A program made the translations under genes and the position numbers. Below, one piece after another: positions 32,038 to 40,391 of a stretch of 64,000 nt of DNA. Where the stretch lies: contig JASHNT010000081.1 of assembly GCA_030041495.1 (NCBI GenBank), forward strand, positions 1 through 64,000. The letters run 5' to 3'. The first letter of the stretch is position 1. Each line of letters starts with the position of its first letter. Under the pieces are notes generated by a model. It ran no database searches, had not been told where the DNA came from, and saw only the letters and a list, made by a program, of their open reading frames with translations. Source of the DNA: Bryobacteraceae bacterium. Its GTDB lineage: Bacteria; Acidobacteriota; Terriglobia; Bryobacterales; Bryobacteraceae.

Positions 32038-33903
32038 TTGAAACGAACCACCTGGTTGGTGGGCGGGCTGTTTGCCGCCTCTGTGTTGATGACAAATCTA
32101 AGCGCGCAGCAGTCGCGCACGGTCGACGCCGCGACGCTGAAAGCCGCGGGAACAACGAATGACCCGATGTCCGGCTCCTGGCTGAGCTACGGCCGCACGC
32201 AAGGAGAGACGCGCTACAGCCCGCTGAACCAGATCGATACATCGAACGCCGCCAAGCTCGGCCCGGCGTGGACCTACACGGTGGGCGCGGGCGGCGGCAA
32301 TCAAGAGGGCACACCTCTGGTCTGGAACAACACCATCTACGGCATCACGAGCTGGAGCGTGGTGTTCGCCCTCGACGCCCGCACCGGCAAACAGCTCTGG
32401 CGCTGGGACCCGGAAGTCAACCAGGGAGCGGTTCGTCCCAAGCTGTGCTGTGGCATTGTGAATCGCGGCCTCGCGATTTCGAACGGCATGATCTTCGCGC
32501 CGGTGATCGACGGGCGCTTGACGGCTCTGGACGCAATGACCGGTGAAGTGAAATGGGAAGCCCGGCTGGGCTACACGCAGAACTGGGTTTCCGTCACCAT
32601 GGCTCCGCGCGTGGCCGGAGACAAAGTGGTAATCGGAGTGGCCGGCGGCGACCATCCCGTGCGCGGATTCATCGACGCCTATGACATTGCCACAGGCCAT
32701 CGCGCCTGGCGCTTTTACACCGTTCCCGGCGACCCCTCCAAAGGCTTCGAAGACGATTCGCAGCGCGAAGCCGCCAAAACCTGGGGCGGCGATTTCTGGA
32801 AGGGCGGCGGCGGCGGAGCCGTGTGGGACGGCATGGCCTACGATCCCGACCTCAACCTTATTTACGTCGGCACCGGCAATGCCGAGCCGTGGGTCGAGAA
32901 ATTCCGCGGCATGAACAAGGGGAAGGACGATCTCTATACCTGCTCCATCCTCGCGCTGGATGTGAAAACCGGCAAGCTGAAGTGGCATTACCAGGTGGTC
33001 CCGGAAGACAACTGGGATTACGATGCCGTGCAGCAATTGATGCTATTGGATCTCAACATCAAGGGCCGCACGCGCAAGGTGCTGATGCAGGCCCCCAAGG
33101 ACGGATTCTTCTATATCCTTGACCGCGCCACCGGTGAGTTGCTCTCCGCCCAGCCCTTCGTGCAAGTGAGCTGGGCCAGGGGCGTCGATCTCAAGACCGG
33201 CCGCCCGCAGGTGATTCCCGAAGCGTTCTACGACAAGACTCCGATCACGCTCTACCCAACAGCCGGCGGCGCTCACAACTGGTCGCCCATGTCCTACAAT
33301 CCGGCCACCGGCTTCGTGTACATTCCGGCGACGTATGGAAACTGGACCTTCGTCGCGGGCGATGAAGTGATTGCGCTGCAAACCGGACACACGGGCCTCG
33401 GCCAGGTGCGCGGTACTCCGGTCGTTCCGCCGACGTGGGGTCCGGAGCCGCTCCAAGGCCAGCGCGGCGTGCTGGAAGCCTGGGATCCGGCGAACTCCAG
33501 GATCGCCTGGCGCATCCCGGGCGGAGGCGGCATCGGCGGCGGAACTGTGACCACCGCGGGCAACCTCGTCTTCCAGGTGATCAATGACGGGCGCTTCCGC
33601 GCGTTGTCCGCCGATAAGGGCGAAATCCTGTACGAGGTCCAGACCAATCGCAACGGCATGGCTCCGCCCATCACTTATATGGTGGACGGCAAGCAATACG
33701 TCGCGTTCATGGGCGGAATGGGACGGCCTGCGCCCGTGGTCGGCGCGAACGACGCGAAAGTCGACGGCGCGCCGATGCTGTTCGTCTTCGAGATCGGCGG
33801 CACCGCGGCGTTGCCCGCGCCCGCTCCTCCTCCGCAGTTCGGCTTTGGCCCGCCGCCGACGGCAGCCCCGAAACCCGCGGCGGCCGAGGCTCCGCACAAC
33901 TAG
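32038..33903 (+). CDS. PQQ-dependent alcohol dehydrogenase, exported
   Basis: A 621-residue periplasmic quinoprotein with a signal peptide, starting at TTG 32038 behind AAGGAG. It has the eight-bladed propeller of the methanol/ethanol dehydrogenase type, the vicinal cysteine pair C137-C138 (KLCCGIVNRG) that packs on PQQ, and the catalytic aspartate D327 in EDNWDYDAV. A second aspartate two positions on (D329) is the feature associated with lanthanide-dependent enzymes. There is no heme c domain; the C-terminus is a Pro/Ala-rich tail (PAPAPPPQFGFGPPP). The end of the gene is duplicated at 35373-35503. Confidence 0.92.
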   Translation: MKRTTWLVGGLFAASVLMTNLSAQQSRTVDAATLKAAGTTNDPMSGSWLSYGRTQGETRYSPLNQIDTSNAAKLGPAWTYTVGAGGGNQEGTPLVWNNTIYGITSWSVVFALDARTGKQLWRWDPEVNQGAVRPKLCCGIVNRGLAISNGMIFAPVIDGRLTALDAMTGEVKWEARLGYTQNWVSVTMAPRVAGDKVVIGVAGGDHPVRGFIDAYDIATGHRAWRFYTVPGDPSKGFEDDSQREAAKTWGGDFWKGGGGGAVWDGMAYDPDLNLIYVGTGNAEPWVEKFRGMNKGKDDLYTCSILALDVKTGKLKWHYQVVPEDNWDYDAVQQLMLLDLNIKGRTRKVLMQAPKDGFFYILDRATGELLSAQPFVQVSWARGVDLKTGRPQVIPEAFYDKTPITLYPTAGGAHNWSPMSYNPATGFVYIPATYGNWTFVAGDEVIALQTGHTGLGQVRGTPVVPPTWGPEPLQGQRGVLEAWDPANSRIAWRIPGGGGIGGGTVTTAGNLVFQVINDGRFRALSADKGEILYEVQTNRNGMAPPITYMVDGKQYVAFMGGMGRPAPVVGANDAKVDGAPMLFVFEIGGTAALPAPAPPPQFGFGPPPTAAPKPAAAEAPHN

Positions 33904-33982
33904 GGCTCCGACTCAGAAAAGGATTTGGTGCCCGGGGTGGGACTTGAACCCACACTCTCCTTGCGGAAAGAGGGATTTTAAG
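33772..33982. repeat. Direct repeat, left copy (PQQ-ADH tail plus tRNA-Leu 3' half)
   Basis: Matches 35373-35577. The coding part (33772-33907) differs from the right copy at only three bases. The spacer before the tRNA differs, and the tRNA part differs at one base. The match stops exactly at the 5' edge of the anticodon loop. Confidence 0.9.
33926..33982 (-). pseudogene. tRNA-Leu 3' half (anticodon loop to CCA), attachment-site remnant
   Basis: Reading the minus strand, this contains the anticodon loop, anticodon 3' strand, variable arm, T arm, acceptor 3' strand and CCA of the tRNA-Leu at 35521-35609, with one base changed. The 5' half is absent. This is what is left beside an element that integrates into a tRNA anticodon loop. 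Confidence 0.85.
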
Positions 33983-34147
33983 GCGATAAACGGGCATCCC
34001 GCGCTATCCGCGTTCCTCACCGAAGCTCCCGTTGTGTCGTAACCTAGCCGCCCTCTCCGGGTCTGTCGTTCTGCCTCATTTTGGCCTGTCCTGGGGAGTT
34101 CGCACACATTTGGCACACCCTAAAAGGGCTACACAGCCCCGCCCAAA

Positions 34148-34282
34148 TCAGTGCCGCAGATGCTGGGAAAGCAAGGCGTAAGCGCCAACCAGGGCTAGAG
34201 CCAGTATGAAGGCCCGGATGAAGATCAAGTCTAGAATGTCGAAGACCTGCTTGACTATTTTGGGCGCTCGGCTTAGAGTCAT
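34148..34282 (-). CDS. 44-residue single-pass membrane protein in the tRNA insertion
   Basis: Starts at ATG 34282, overlapping the stop of the 294-aa gene as ATGA, and ends at TGA 34148. The short N-terminus (MTLSRAPKIVKQVFDI) is followed by one strongly hydrophobic segment (LIFIRAFILALALVGAYALL) and a basic end (SQHLRH). The overlap implies coupled translation with its partner. I know no family for it. Short membrane proteins paired with a larger soluble protein occur in phage, toxin and defence cassettes, but no function can be assigned here. Confidence 0.6.
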   Translation of the reverse strand: MTLSRAPKIVKQVFDILDLIFIRAFILALALVGAYALLSQHLRH

Positions 34283-35163
34283 TTCTTCCGCTCCGCGACC
34301 TGCTTCCCTGGGTCTAGGACGTTAGCGAGAGCGAGCGCCTTTTCGCTCTCTTTTGTAATCTTGCGGGCGGCTTCTTCTGTTTGTTTCAGCAGTGCATCTA
34401 ACAAGTCAGGCAGACGCGTAATACCAACTACTCGTAGGGCCCTTGGAGCTTGGCCGAAGAGCCAGGTTTTCTCATCGTCTAGTTCATCTGGCTGATCGTA
34501 GCGGCCTTTTCTTTGCCGTAACGTGAGGCCCCATTTGTCGTTGACGTGGGCGTATCCGATTTCATCCGACCACCAGTGGCCGTTCCACTCTCCGCTGGCC
34601 AGCTTGACCCACGCGGACACGCCCAGATTCAACCCTTGAAGAAGGGAATCCCACGTCGCTCCTGCACGAGAAAGCTCCGCCGAGGCCGCATTAATCTCAG
34701 CGGCTGCAAGGGCGAGTTTTACATAGGAGCCTTGAACCTTCTCGGCAAGACGCGAGTCAAGCGTTGGAGAACTCCTACTGGCAGCTTGACTCGTAGCCGT
34801 GGCCTGCGCCGTCTTAACGGTCTCCACCAAATCCGAAAGTTCCCGAGACAGGTCTGTCGTCGTAACCTGCCTGATAGCGTCTACGATTGACGTATCAGGC
34901 GAAAAGGCTTCGAGCTGTGTCGTCAGGTATGGGTTTGAAGGAACGGCCCCCGAAAGCGACGTGGGAGCCCCATAAACGGTCCCACTATTTAAGGGCTGTT
35001 CGGCGGGGGGCTCCGGCGGCTTCAACATTTCGGTAGGAGACGTTAATGGCCTTAAAGGTTCGATAGGGGGCCTCAGCGGCTTTAACGGTCCTGGCTTTTG
35101 ATTTTGTTGGGTCTTCTCGTCCTTAGGCTTCGCGGACGGACCCTTGGGAGGGTTGAACTGCAT
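34279..35163 (-). CDS. Unknown protein, proline-rich N-terminus and helical C-terminus
   Basis: A 294-residue protein starting at ATG 35163, chosen because GGAG stands five bases before it; the frame is open to 35235. Residues 1-60 are rich in proline and lysine with PxxP repeats (LKPLRPPIEPLRPL, LKPPEPP). A helical region of about 85-160 follows. Next comes a tryptophan-rich segment (WVKLASGEWNGHWWSDEIGY) and a charged C-terminal helix. There is no signal peptide or membrane span, and I recognise no family. It is the main cargo of the tRNA-Leu insertion and is coupled to the small membrane protein after it. Confidence 0.7.
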   Translation of the reverse strand: MQFNPPKGPSAKPKDEKTQQNQKPGPLKPLRPPIEPLRPLTSPTEMLKPPEPPAEQPLNSGTVYGAPTSLSGAVPSNPYLTTQLEAFSPDTSIVDAIRQVTTTDLSRELSDLVETVKTAQATATSQAASRSSPTLDSRLAEKVQGSYVKLALAAAEINAASAELSRAGATWDSLLQGLNLGVSAWVKLASGEWNGHWWSDEIGYAHVNDKWGLTLRQRKGRYDQPDELDDEKTWLFGQAPRALRVVGITRLPDLLDALLKQTEEAARKITKESEKALALANVLDPGKQVAERKK

Positions 35164-35372
35164 AGCGTCTCCTTCAATCGGATAGATTGCGCTTACGTCG
35201 GTATTCCACGACGGCTTGGTCCTTCGGGTTTTCACCGATTCAGGCTGGGCACCGAACCAAACAACTAAATGCTATCACAAGACCGCAATCGCGGCGAGGA
35301 TTTTACGAGGAGAGCCGCGTCGATTGGGTACTCTAGTTAAGTTAGCCTGCGGGGGGCGTAGTCCGGGTCGCT
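35164..35372. other. Leader of the insertion genes, no gene seen
   Basis: About 200 bases between the 294-aa gene and the right direct repeat. It probably holds the promoter of the two cargo genes on the minus strand. No clear promoter pair could be fixed by eye. Confidence 0.35.
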
Positions 35373-35577
35373 CCGATGCTGTTCGTGTTCGAGGTCGGCG
35401 GCGCCGCGGCGTTGCCCGCGCCCGCTCCTCCTCCGCAGTTCGGCTTTGGCCCGCCGCCGACGGCAGCCCCGAAACCCGCGGCGGCCGAGGCTCCGCACAA
35501 CTAGGGCTCACGATGATACTTGGTGCCCGGGGTGGGACTTGAACCCACACTCTCCTTGCGGAAAAAGGGATTTTAAG
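35373..35577. repeat. Direct repeat, right copy (truncated PQQ-ADH tail plus tRNA-Leu 3' half)
   Basis: Partner of 33772-33982. It begins abruptly within the PQQ dehydrogenase frame and keeps its stop codon. The three differences change one codon silently and two conservatively (I to V, T to A), as in a homologous gene from a relative rather than random decay. Confidence 0.9.
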
Positions 35578-35609
35578 TCCCTTGCGTCTGCCGATTTCGC
35601 CACCCGGGC
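35521..35609 (-). tRNA. tRNA-Leu (anticodon TAA)
   Basis: A complete class II tRNA on the minus strand: 7-bp acceptor stem GCCCGGG/CCCGGGC, D arm, anticodon stem AGGGA/TCCCT with loop CTTAAAA (anticodon TAA, reading UUA), long variable arm (CCGCAAGG), T arm with GGTTCAAGTCC, and encoded CCA. The gene is functional in form even though an element has integrated at its anticodon loop, because the element restores the 3' half. Confidence 0.95.
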
Positions 35610-36700: not shown

Positions 36701-37861
36701 ATGCTTCAGAGCCTGTTAATCACTGACGACCGCGAGGCTGCCGAACTGATTGCGCGCGCCATCCGGCAGTTGCCTGAAATCCATCTCGAGCAGATTCTCT
36801 GCCCCTCCCCAACCCACTACCAGCTAACCCGGGCATTGAACACCCTGAGGCTCGACGTGCTCTTCCTCGATCTTGCATCCCACCAGGTTCAACTGGTGTG
36901 CGAGGAGACGGCCCGGAAATCAGCCAAAACCGCGATCGCCGGTTTCTCGATGGACCGGCTCGCCCGGCACGACAGCGCGACGGCGCATCATCTGACATGG
37001 CCCTTTTCGAGTGCCAGCCTTCGCGACGCCGTCCAGCGGGCGGTTCGCTCGGCTTCCGGCATGCCGCTCCCGGGCGTGTATTGCTTTATTCCGGCAAAAG
37101 GCGGCGCTGGAGCGACAACGATTACCGTAAATCTGGCCTGCCATCTCGTCTCTTCTCTTGGCAAGAGCGTTCTGGTAGCCGAGGCAGACCTCCGATCGGG
37201 AACGATGGCGGACTGGCTCGGAACGAAAGCTTCTCAGTCGATGGCCCAGACGCTGGCTTGCGCGGACAGTTGCATGTCGCTGATCTGGCCTCGGCACGTA
37301 TCGCGCAAGTACGGGGTGGATTGGATGCTGACGGATCGCGAACCAAGCCTCGTGAAGCCCACTTGGGGAGATTACCGGCAACTGTTGACCTTCGCCTCCA
37401 CGCGCTACGATTACGCCTTCGTCGATCTCCCGGCCGCCCTGGATGAAGATGCCTGGGAAGCGGCTCTTATCTCTCGCAAGGCTTTTGTGGTGACCACGCC
37501 TGAGGTGCTGTCGCTGCGCCTTGCGGGGCAGCGGATCGCGGAGCTGGAAGCCTTCGGCGTTCCCAAGTCGCGGGTCGAGGTGCTGGTGAATCGGGCACAG
37601 CGTGGCGACGCTATCGGCATAAATCAGATCCGCGAAACTCTGGCCTGCGAAATCGGCGGCGTCTTCCCCAACGATTACCCTGTAGTCAATAGGTCGATTG
37701 CGGCCAGAACGTTTGTCGACAGCGGAAGCAAGCTCGGCCGCGCGTATAATGCGTTCGCGGCAGCCTTGGCCGGGCATACGAGGCCAGAGCTGGCGCTCGC
37801 GGCTAAGCCCTCCCTGCTTGGGTTTCTGAGCTCGCCCAGACGCAACCCCGTCCGGGTTTGA
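36701..37861 (+). CDS. cpaE: CpaE/TadZ-like MinD-family ATPase with receiver-like N-terminus
   Basis: A 386-residue protein. Residues 1-115 resemble a degenerate receiver domain (LLITDDREAAELIARAI, LDVLFLDLASHQVQ), then a deviant Walker A, KGGAGATT (133-140), and MinD-type motifs (VLVAEADLRSGTMADWLG, YDYAFVDLPA). CpaE/TadZ localises the Tad pilus machine at the pole. No other tad or cpa gene is in the window, so this copy is an orphan or its partners lie elsewhere. AGGGA lies 9 bases before ATG. Confidence 0.8.
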   Translation: MLQSLLITDDREAAELIARAIRQLPEIHLEQILCPSPTHYQLTRALNTLRLDVLFLDLASHQVQLVCEETARKSAKTAIAGFSMDRLARHDSATAHHLTWPFSSASLRDAVQRAVRSASGMPLPGVYCFIPAKGGAGATTITVNLACHLVSSLGKSVLVAEADLRSGTMADWLGTKASQSMAQTLACADSCMSLIWPRHVSRKYGVDWMLTDREPSLVKPTWGDYRQLLTFASTRYDYAFVDLPAALDEDAWEAALISRKAFVVTTPEVLSLRLAGQRIAELEAFGVPKSRVEVLVNRAQRGDAIGINQIRETLACEIGGVFPNDYPVVNRSIAARTFVDSGSKLGRAYNAFAAALAGHTRPELALAAKPSLLGFLSSPRRNPVRV

Positions 37862-37937
37862 ATTTCACCGCCGCCGGCTGGCATCGCTTCGCCGCGGGAT
37901 AATCGCTCGCAGTCCTTTGGTATATGCTTTAGGAAGC

Positions 37938-40391
37938 GTGTCCCCTTCTACTCGGAAATTCATGGGCGCGGCTGTCGCCGCCGGTTTTGCGCTATTTCTC
38001 GCCGGGCGAGTGCGCCTCGGCGCGGCGCCTCCTCAAGTTGCCGTGGCATCGCTGTCCGCGAGCTCCGCGCAGGAGATTGCCACGCATCGGGCCATGCTCG
38101 ATCAGTACTGCGTGGTCTGCCACAACCAGAAGTTGAAGACGGCCGGGTTGATGCTCGACAAGATGGACCTCAGTCAGGTCCCGGAGGGCGCGCAGACGTG
38201 GGAAAAGGTGATCCTCAAGCTGCGGGGAGGCATGATGCCGCCGCAAGGGCACCCGCGCCCCGGTTCCGATCAGGTGTATTCGTTCCTGAACTGGCTGGAG
38301 ACCGGCATCGATAACGCTCCCAACGCCCGCACCGAGCCCGGCCGAGCCACCGTTCATCGCCTCAACCGCACCGAATACGGCAACGCCATCCGCGACCTGC
38401 TGCATCTGGACGTCAACGTCGCCGACCTGCTGCCGGCCGACGATGAAGCCGACGGATTCGACAACATCGCCGACGTGCTGAAAGTGTCGCCGTCGCTACT
38501 GGAGCAGTATCTTTCCGCCTCGACCAAGATTGCAGCGGTTGCGGTGGGCGATCCGGGGACGCTGCCCGTGAGCCACGTGTTCCAGGTCCCTCCGGATCTG
38601 GCGCAGGAGGGCCACATTGAGGGCCTGCCGCTCGGCACGCGCGGAGGCATTCTCATCCATCAGAATTTCCCCCTCGACGCCGACTACGAGTTCAGCGTGG
38701 CTCTGATCCAGAACATCGTCGGCTACGTGACAGGCCTCGAATATCCGCACAAGCTCGAGATCAGCATTGACGGTAACCGCGTGTTCCTCGCTCCGGTGGG
38801 CGGCGAGGAAGATAACAAGATGTCCGACGCGAATCTGGGAATCGCCAAGGATACCCTGGACGCGCGCCTCAAGACCAAGGTGCACGTCACGGCCGGTCCG
38901 CATGATGTGGCTGTCGCGTTCCTGCGCAAGGATTCCGCGGAATCGGACGAGCCTTTACAGCCCTTCACCCGCGATCTGGACCTGCAGAACATGAACGGCA
39001 TTCCCCTGATCGACCATGTGCAGATTACCGGGCCGTTCGATGCGAAGGGTCCGGGCGACACGCCCGGCCGCCGGCGCATCTTCACCTGCACGCCCGCCTC
39101 CGCTTCTGACGAAACGCAGTGCGCCAAGCAGATTCTTTCCACTCTGGCGCGCCGCGCCTATCGCGGGCCGGTTTCCGATAAGGATATGGAGACGCTGCTC
39201 AGCTTCTATCAGTCCGGCCGCAATCATTCCACCTTCGATTACGGAATCGAGAACGCTCTGCGGCTGATTCTGGCGAGCCCGCGCTTCATCTTCCGCTCTC
39301 AGCCCGACCCGGCCGGCGTCGCGCCCGGCTCCGTGTACCGGATCAACGATGTCGAGCTGGCCTCGCGCCTTTCTTTCTTCCTGTGGAGCAGCGTCCCGGA
39401 CGATCAGCTTTTGGACGTGGCGATGCAAGGCAAATTGAGGGACCCGGCGGTGCTGGAGCAGCAGGTCAAGCGCATGCTGGCGGATCCAAAAGCCGACGCC
39501 TTGACCACCAACTTCGCGGAGCAGTGGCTGTTCTTGCGCAATGTACAGAGCGCCTCGCCCAACGAGGACGATTTTCCGAATTTCGACGACAACCTGCGCC
39601 AGGCCATGCGCAAGGAAACCGAACTCTTTTTTGAGAGCATTGTGCGCGAGGATCACAACGTTCTGGATCTGCTGAATGCGGATTATACGTTCGTGAATGA
39701 CCGGCTGGCCAAGCATTACGGTATTCCGGATATTTACGGTAGCCAGTTCCGCCGGGTCACTCTCACCGATGAGAATCGGCGCGGGCTGCTGGGACAGGCC
39801 AGCATCTTGACGGTGACTTCGCAGCCCAACCGCACCTCGCCGGTGCTGCGCGGCAAATGGATCATGGAGAATTTGATGGGCACTCCTCCACCCGCGCCGC
39901 CGCCGAATGTTCCGCCTTTGAAGGAAAACGACGAGGGAGCGAAGGCGCAATCGGTGCGGGCTCTACTGGAACTGCATCGCAAGAACCCTCCCTGCTCCAC
40001 CTGTCACGCCGTGCTGGACCCGCTCGGCTTCTCACTCGAGAATTTCGACGCGATCGGCGAGTGGCGCACCCGCGACGCCAGCGGCCCGGTGGATGCTTCC
40101 GGTCAATTGGCCGACGGCACGCCTGTGAGCGGCCCCGTGGCTCTGCGCAAGGTGCTGATGAAGCACCCCGAGCAGTTCGTGCGCACGCTGGTCAGCAAAC
40201 TGATGACCTACGGGCTGGGGCGCGAATTGGAATATTACGACATGCCCACCGTGCGCACCATCGAACGCCAGGCCTCCGCGGACAACTACCGCTTCTCTTC
40301 GCTGATTCTGGGAATCGTCAAGAGCACGGAGTTCCAGATGCAACGCGCCCAGCCGCCTCTTTCGGGCAGCGCACTGGCCCAGGCGCGGTAG
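37938..40391 (+). CDS. Large exported cytochrome-type protein with DUF1587/1595/1592/1588/1585
   Basis: About 817 residues from GTG 37938; TTG 37917 or ATG 37962 are alternative starts. After the signal sequence comes a heme c site (CVVCH). DUF1587 (HRLNRTEYGNAIRDLL), DUF1595 (RRAYRGPVSDKDMETLL), DUF1592 (LASRLSFFLWSSVPDD), DUF1588 with a second CXXCH (PPCSTCHAVLDPLGF) and DUF1585 follow. This multi-domain set is known from planctomycetes and acidobacteria and is usually next to a DUF1552 gene. No such neighbour is present here. The role is unknown, probably periplasmic redox chemistry. Confidence 0.85.
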   Translation: MSPSTRKFMGAAVAAGFALFLAGRVRLGAAPPQVAVASLSASSAQEIATHRAMLDQYCVVCHNQKLKTAGLMLDKMDLSQVPEGAQTWEKVILKLRGGMMPPQGHPRPGSDQVYSFLNWLETGIDNAPNARTEPGRATVHRLNRTEYGNAIRDLLHLDVNVADLLPADDEADGFDNIADVLKVSPSLLEQYLSASTKIAAVAVGDPGTLPVSHVFQVPPDLAQEGHIEGLPLGTRGGILIHQNFPLDADYEFSVALIQNIVGYVTGLEYPHKLEISIDGNRVFLAPVGGEEDNKMSDANLGIAKDTLDARLKTKVHVTAGPHDVAVAFLRKDSAESDEPLQPFTRDLDLQNMNGIPLIDHVQITGPFDAKGPGDTPGRRRIFTCTPASASDETQCAKQILSTLARRAYRGPVSDKDMETLLSFYQSGRNHSTFDYGIENALRLILASPRFIFRSQPDPAGVAPGSVYRINDVELASRLSFFLWSSVPDDQLLDVAMQGKLRDPAVLEQQVKRMLADPKADALTTNFAEQWLFLRNVQSASPNEDDFPNFDDNLRQAMRKETELFFESIVREDHNVLDLLNADYTFVNDRLAKHYGIPDIYGSQFRRVTLTDENRRGLLGQASILTVTSQPNRTSPVLRGKWIMENLMGTPPPAPPPNVPPLKENDEGAKAQSVRALLELHRKNPPCSTCHAVLDPLGFSLENFDAIGEWRTRDASGPVDASGQLADGTPVSGPVALRKVLMKHPEQFVRTLVSKLMTYGLGRELEYYDMPTVRTIERQASADNYRFSSLILGIVKSTEFQMQRAQPPLSGSALAQAR

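Follow-up and report, generated by a model that had tools for sequence, protein, structure and literature searches.

Organization of the tRNA-Leu locus

The DNA analysed, referred to below as the window, is a stretch of 64,000 nucleotides of contig JASHNT010000081.1 from a Bryobacteraceae bacterium, the genome of which (G000) is a draft of 6.1 Mb in 144 contigs. The only tRNA gene predicted in the window by ARAGORN is tRNA-Leu(taa), located on the minus strand at 35521-35609 with its anticodon at base 35; a second complete tRNA-Leu was not found there. Along the locus, a gene encoding a pyrroloquinoline quinone (PQQ)-dependent dehydrogenase is followed by a spacer, a 3' half of the tRNA gene, an insert, a second copy of the tail of the dehydrogenase gene, another spacer and the full tRNA-Leu(TAA), as follows.

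32038-33903, plus strand: intact open reading frame of a PQQ-dependent dehydrogenase, 621 amino acids (Pfam PF01011, E = 2.2e-86)
33772-33908, plus strand: left dehydrogenase 3' tail, the gene's own end and 5 bases past the stop codon (repeat)
33909-33925, unstranded: left spacer, different from the right one (sequence comparison)
33926-33982, minus strand: displaced tRNA-Leu 3' half, tRNA bases 33-89, with the loop at 33976-33982 (98 % repeat of 35521-35577)
33983-35372, unstranded: insert, putative remnant of an integrative element (56.2 % G+C)
34148-34282, minus strand: open reading frame of 44 amino acids, hydrophobic, with a 4-base overlap with the 318-amino-acid frame (ORF list)
34279-35235, minus strand: open reading frame of 318 amino acids, C-terminal domain at approximately residues 154-313 (ORF list and homologue searches)
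35373-35509, plus strand: right dehydrogenase-tail copy, at the position of the integrase in a related element (repeat; gene order in G120)
35510-35520, unstranded: right spacer, unique in the window when taken together with the start of the tRNA (pattern search)
35521-35577, minus strand: tRNA-Leu 3' half, presumably supplied by the element, with the loop at 35571-35577 as the presumed crossover core (ARAGORN and repeat)
35578-35609, minus strand: tRNA-Leu(TAA) 5' half, bases 1-32, presumably that of the host (ARAGORN)

A repeat search of the window gave two direct repeats, one of 150 bases with 95 % identity (33759-33908 and 35360-35509) and one of 58 bases with 98 % identity (33925-33982 and 35520-35577). 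The clean part of the first (33772-33908 and 35373-35509) comprises 137 bases of the dehydrogenase tail with three differences, all of which lie within the first 31 bases, a clustering with a chance probability of 0.011. The spacers that follow, 17 bases on the left and 11 on the right, are unlike each other, with 106 identical bases adjoining them. The tRNA 3' halves differ at 1 of 57 bases, and the left one starts at base 33 of the tRNA, where the seven-base anticodon loop CTTAAAA begins (bases 33-39, counted by hand from the anticodon position given by ARAGORN). The initial annotation, that a tRNA-Leu 3' half and a full tRNA-Leu(TAA) flank an insert, that identity stops at the 5' edge of the anticodon loop and that the repeat continues into the dehydrogenase gene with a different spacer, was thus borne out.

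The insert itself consists of 1,390 bases with a G+C content of 56.2 %, compared with 62.1 and 61.2 % in the flanks. At its inner junction with the tail copy (35372/35373) no extended homology was seen by eye, only a few bases being in common with the gene. When positions 35360-35609 were searched against the same genome, the best 40 of 81 candidates contained only these two copies and one 27-base match on another contig, and a pattern scan of the 97-kb contig found no third copy of the tRNA half. An older island on the dehydrogenase side was also considered and is unsupported, no distal tRNA half having been found. Comparison of the dehydrogenase with viral contigs gave three stretches, none of which was confirmed.

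Content of the insert and a related element

No Pfam family was matched by either open reading frame of the insert. Against PHROG, the only matches had E-values of 0.15 and 0.5 for the 318-amino-acid protein and 0.3 for the 44-amino-acid protein; the former had no match in phage records, and the 26 stretches that it gave in viral contigs included none that was confirmed. The insert was unmatched by blastn among the loci fetched from other genomes. Relatives of the C-terminal domain of the 318-amino-acid protein were found in 8 of 200 genomes of the family; an alignment-based search of the order gave 9 of 257 genomes, the genome studied here being included in both counts.

This C-terminal domain is common to one gene of an element (in genome G120) and one gene of a plasmid. 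In G120, a tRNA-Ser(CGA) is followed by a Phage_integrase protein (tyrosine integrase, PF00589, E = 2.6e-10), the relative of the 318-amino-acid protein as the second gene after the tRNA, an open reading frame of 73 amino acids, a helix-turn-helix protein and an AEP-TOTE primase protein. At a distance of 13.2 kb, 22 bases of the tRNA-Ser 3' end are repeated, from which we infer an integrative element of this length. The 73-amino-acid frame resembles the 44-amino-acid frame of the window as judged by eye only. The G120 integrase lies between the tRNA and the relative frame, the very position taken by the dehydrogenase tail in the window. The content of the insert is therefore element-like, as the initial annotation had proposed, with the relative of its larger protein being the second gene of an integrase-bearing element.

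G120 is the one case seen in which a protein of this family is next to an integrase beside a tRNA. The other six of the seven context loci of such relatives (L099-L105) gave no match to three integrases in tblastn searches, and the plasmid relative, from Granulicella, is surrounded by other genes, none of them annotated as an integrase over the stretch covered; both observations weaken the interpretation of the insert as an element. The same three integrases gave no tblastn match in the window, nor was an integrase found in the insert by a motif scan, which is unreliable, as it missed even the G120 integrase. Elsewhere in the genome a distant integrase (C142), with 35 % identity to that of G120, adjoins tRNA-Phe and could act in trans.

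Origin of the insert and of the repeated gene tail

The preferred explanation of the window, to which a probability of about 0.4 is given, is that the insert is the decayed form of an integrative element that targeted a tRNA gene, accompanied by a copy of a host flank; it would have arrived through an aberrant circle from a close relative. Site-specific recombination within the seven bases of the anticodon loop would have placed an element in tRNA-Leu(TAA). The repeat geometry suggests that the right tRNA 3' half is that of the element, by which the gene was rebuilt, and that the left half is the displaced end of the host gene; the proposal of the initial annotation that integration took place at the anticodon loop is thereby supported. 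The integrase of the element would have been lost and its place taken by the 137 bases of dehydrogenase tail. We infer that in a very close relative the interior of the element was joined to the host gene beside the displaced end to give the aberrant circle, a process that would have dropped the integrase and carried the gene tail and tRNA half along. The circle may have entered the present genome at the loop, through the action in trans of an integrase, or through a single homologous crossover within the common tail; both routes would give the order of gene, half, element, gene tail and full tRNA. Circles of the kind formed in specialised transduction, and Campbell integration by a single crossover, place host flanks next to an element and leave direct repeats of the flank. 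For the window, such an event would be deduced from the arrangement, no circle or phage having been seen.

The interpretation as a decayed element is supported by the geometry of the repeats with the boundary at base 33, by the lower G+C content and by the gene order in G120, and also by a genome of the same genus, G012, in which two partial tRNA-Leu copies have an integrase fragment between them. Where the dehydrogenase genes of relatives had a matching tail, identity was 68-74 %, whereas the two copies in the window differ at 3 of 137 bases, so that a donor would have to be a very close strain. The bases at the three differing sites were read by eye against seven relatives. At site 1 the base of the right copy is present in all seven, at site 2 the base of the right copy is present in one (G018) and that of the left copy in none, and at site 3 the base of the left copy is present in all seven. 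Each copy consequently has one or more bases peculiar to it, and the right one is more than a recent duplicate of the left. These individual bases, together with the C142 integrase that could act in trans, support a circle from a close strain.

The initial annotation had suggested, as the source of the flank, a relative with the same dehydrogenase gene ahead of the same tRNA. Such a donor is possible, but no match joining the tRNA to the dehydrogenase tail was reported in the 236 other genomes of the family, none of which is of the same species (E ≤ 1e-12, best three candidates per genome; 180 of the 237 genomes had no match at this threshold), which weakens the case for a circle. The fetched flanks of ten dehydrogenase loci of relatives (L005-L014) contained no tRNA, two of them (L006 and L011) ending at a contig edge just past the gene. 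The annotation had called for a comparison with empty sites in related genomes: the fetched loci of seven members of the same genus (L073-L078 and L081) have one full tRNA-Leu(TAA) and no displaced half, but none lies beside the dehydrogenase. Downstream neighbours of the tRNA are common to G018, G021 and G022; one of these, a protein of 392 amino acids (an antiporter as judged by eye), was searched and has only a 31 % match in G000, and the flank in the window therefore appears lineage-specific.

The circle is further weakened by the unlike spacers, which beside near-identical blocks need an extra event, and by the inner junction, which has no extended homology. The unlike spacers are explained directly if a normal integration was followed by loss of the integrase region and the break was filled from the nearby dehydrogenase tail as a templated insertion, the right spacer then being, with the same tentative standing, the last 11 bases of the element itself. 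The abrupt ends of the block, the inner junction and the fact that the integrase is missing exactly there fit such a repair patch, which is a tentative but serious alternative. At site 1, where all seven relatives have the base of the right copy, it requires that the left gene changed later; site 2, with a single relative, points in the same direction. For the join between insert and gene tail the circle is preferred, the repair patch being almost as likely.

Two further explanations dispense with a donor circle. If the stretch from the gene tail through the tRNA half to the element had been duplicated locally in tandem, and the second copy then excised precisely, the same order of parts would result without any donor. 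The initial annotation had named such a duplication as an outcome that would overturn its proposal, and it is considered unlikely, since it predicts identical spacers, whereas those observed are unlike although 106 neighbouring bases are identical. An assembly chimera of two strains could be imagined in a draft of this many contigs, with two alleles of one block on one contig; the few bases that the join at 35372/35373 has in common with the gene were judged too little for a jump by the assembler, and this explanation is regarded as still more improbable than the duplication. The decayed element with a flank brought by a circle is retained as the preferred reading, and the window then serves as an illustration of an integrative element that has lost its integrase and come to stand beside a copied end of a host gene.

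tRNA-Leu genes in related genomes

A full-length intronless match to the tRNA of the window, with 89-100 % identity, is present in 13 of 23 genomes of the genus, that of the window included. A second form of tRNA-Leu, with an intron of 209-237 bases in the anticodon loop, was found in 23 of 237 genomes of the family, representing 15 of 76 genera (E ≤ 1e-30), two of the matches being partial. One copy of the intron, tested in a permissive search, scored 37.2 bits (E = 5.5e-8) with the group I model RF00028, below the gathering score of 50, and the intron was missed by Rfam at the gathering level.

Upstream of the intron-bearing tRNA, 11 of the 23 carriers have a 5' half of the native type, and in the other 12 none was found within the flank of up to 1.5 kb that was searched. 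The half ends at base 39, the last base of the loop, in nine of the 11, at base 35 in G165 and at base 41 in G006; the break thus lies within the seven-base loop at base 33 in the window and at base 39 in nine of the 11 relatives. The gap between the half and the intron-bearing tRNA is 43-55 bases in ten genomes. In G006 it is occupied by an integrase of 439 amino acids (PF14659 above and PF00589 below the cut-off), and further along this contig, beyond the intron-bearing tRNA, lies an N-6 DNA methylase gene; a 3' half was not found on the contig.

Beyond the intron-bearing tRNA, a native-type 3' half is present in G113, G028, G165 and G004, with 3.8-8.9 kb between the halves; in G004 an RND efflux operon lies in this interval. 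The corresponding stretches of approximately 4-9 kb (L199, L200, L204 and L062, respectively) gave no match to three integrases. The conventional interpretation, in which the loci of relatives are small islands carrying a 5' fragment of the tRNA, was rejected for the intron class, because of the native-type 3' half beyond the intron-bearing tRNA in these four genomes and because the intron-bearing tRNA differs from the native 5' half. The same interpretation is not rejected for the intronless CAA class described below. Among the matches listed, a full-length intronless copy with at least 83 % identity was present in 3 of the 23 carriers (G010, G015 and G029).

Several further arrangements were observed at tRNA-Leu. 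In G029 (L198:7099-7508) a full intronless tRNA-Leu is followed after 5 bases by an intron-bearing tRNA-Leu match without its first 8 bases, with a displaced 3' half approximately 4 kb beyond the pair. The two partial copies in G012 (L063:7383-9872) are 2.4 kb apart, the fragment between them being the C-terminal part of an integrase, and the right end of the element reappears, as judged by eye, at the edge of contig C277, which suggests tandem elements. C-terminal integrase fragments related to that of G012 lie at most about 110 bases before the 5' end of tRNA-Leu in G004, G055, G141 and G214 (L062:5472-5639, L187, L212 and L214), hinting at elements on the 5' side of tRNA-Leu as well.

An integrase clade adjacent to tRNA-Leu

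In G006 the tyrosine integrase, with the tRNA-Leu 5' half and the intron-bearing tRNA-Leu on either side, is found at L065:5880-7593. With this integrase as query, 363 relatives were found in the genome collection, and the best 80 loci (L215-L294) were examined, of which six extend less than 450 bases downstream and three at most 350 bases upstream. A tRNA-Leu 5' half was present within 400 bases upstream of the integrase in 56 of the 80 and the pair of group I intron motifs within 700 bases downstream in 36; 30 loci had both and 18 neither. The rest of the same loci (approximately 644 kb, both strands) gave one intron match and two half matches as background. ARAGORN predicted an intron-bearing tRNA-Leu(taa) in 28 of the 80 (counted by hand). 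By record title, the loci with the intron motif span more than one phylum, including Acidobacteria, Alphaproteobacteria and Binataceae.

Downstream of the integrase, 14 of the 44 loci without the intron motif have an intronless tRNA-Leu (12 CAA, one TAA and one TAG). Seven of the 80 integrases directly follow a complete tRNA-Arg, -Met or -Phe, so not every member of the clade targets tRNA-Leu. Displaced-half distances of approximately 1.5-1.8 kb (L221, L225, L226, L274 and L283) were left out, since at that distance the match can be the 3' end of the carried tRNA itself; L234 (6.3 kb) was also not used. Within the genus of the window, an integrase of the G006 type was found in G006 alone of the 23 genomes (E ≤ 1e-10), and the other carriers in the genus thus hold the intron-bearing tRNA without the integrase.

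Taken together, the observations favour, on balance, a joint reading in which a widespread integrase clade targets the tRNA-Leu gene at its anticodon loop. The elements would destroy the gene and carry a complete tRNA-Leu beside the integrase; where the carried tRNA is of the UAA type it holds a group I intron in the same loop, so that it would no longer be a target, and the host would come to rely on the element as its source of an essential tRNA. The same seven-base core would also be occupied by the insert in the window, which rebuilds the tRNA gene in the usual manner. The elements thus seem to solve the problem of a broken tRNA by bringing an intron-protected substitute. That introns may shield tRNA genes from integration is a general idea from archaeal work. 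The idea of replacement is weakened by the 15 genus genomes without an intron copy: a close full-length match is likewise missing from four of them (G003, G011, G017 and G020), of which two are at least 94 % complete.

If true, the joint reading would explain the spread between phyla of tRNA group I introns too short for a homing enzyme, and would provide both a route of mobility for bacterial tRNA group I introns and a case of host dependence on a mobile element. The pattern at tRNA-Leu in relatives is more surprising than the feature of the window and is not a property of the window itself, because G000 has neither a match to the intron-bearing tRNA (E ≤ 1e-30) nor an integrase of the clade (E ≤ 1e-10).

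Comparison with known systems

Among the islands described with Islander, the anticodon loop is one named crossover sub-site, and 159 of 3,919 islands have a 5' fragment (PMC4383910). The window resembles the islands as presented there in having a full tRNA and a displaced 3' fragment in the same orientation with a crossover in the anticodon loop; it differs in that no integrase was found in the insert, which is only about 1.4 kb, and in that the tail of a host gene is repeated together with the tRNA fragment. Of the features by which Islander defines an island, the window has the complete tRNA and the same-orientation fragment flanking an insert, but no integrase was found inside, and it is therefore classed as a remnant and not as a member.

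In archaea, integrated elements have been linked to fragmented and intron-bearing tRNA genes (PMC3293823). As described in that source, the archaeal case is similar in that integration into a tRNA gene is tied to genes of both kinds, and different in that it concerns tRNA-Thr, whereas here the gene is a bacterial tRNA-Leu and the intron of the relatives, which resembles group I, adjoins an integrase. In the literature searched, mostly abstracts, no description was found of integrase elements with a replacement intron-bearing tRNA, which is weak evidence of novelty.

Other features of the genome

PQQ-dependent dehydrogenases form a large set of paralogues in G000, with 25 matches at E ≤ 1e-50. 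Further along the window, positions 37917-40391 encode a protein with five domains of planctomycete type (DUF1592, DUF1588, DUF1585, DUF1587 and DUF1595), and its gene is adjoined by an AAA/ParA-like gene at 36701-37861.
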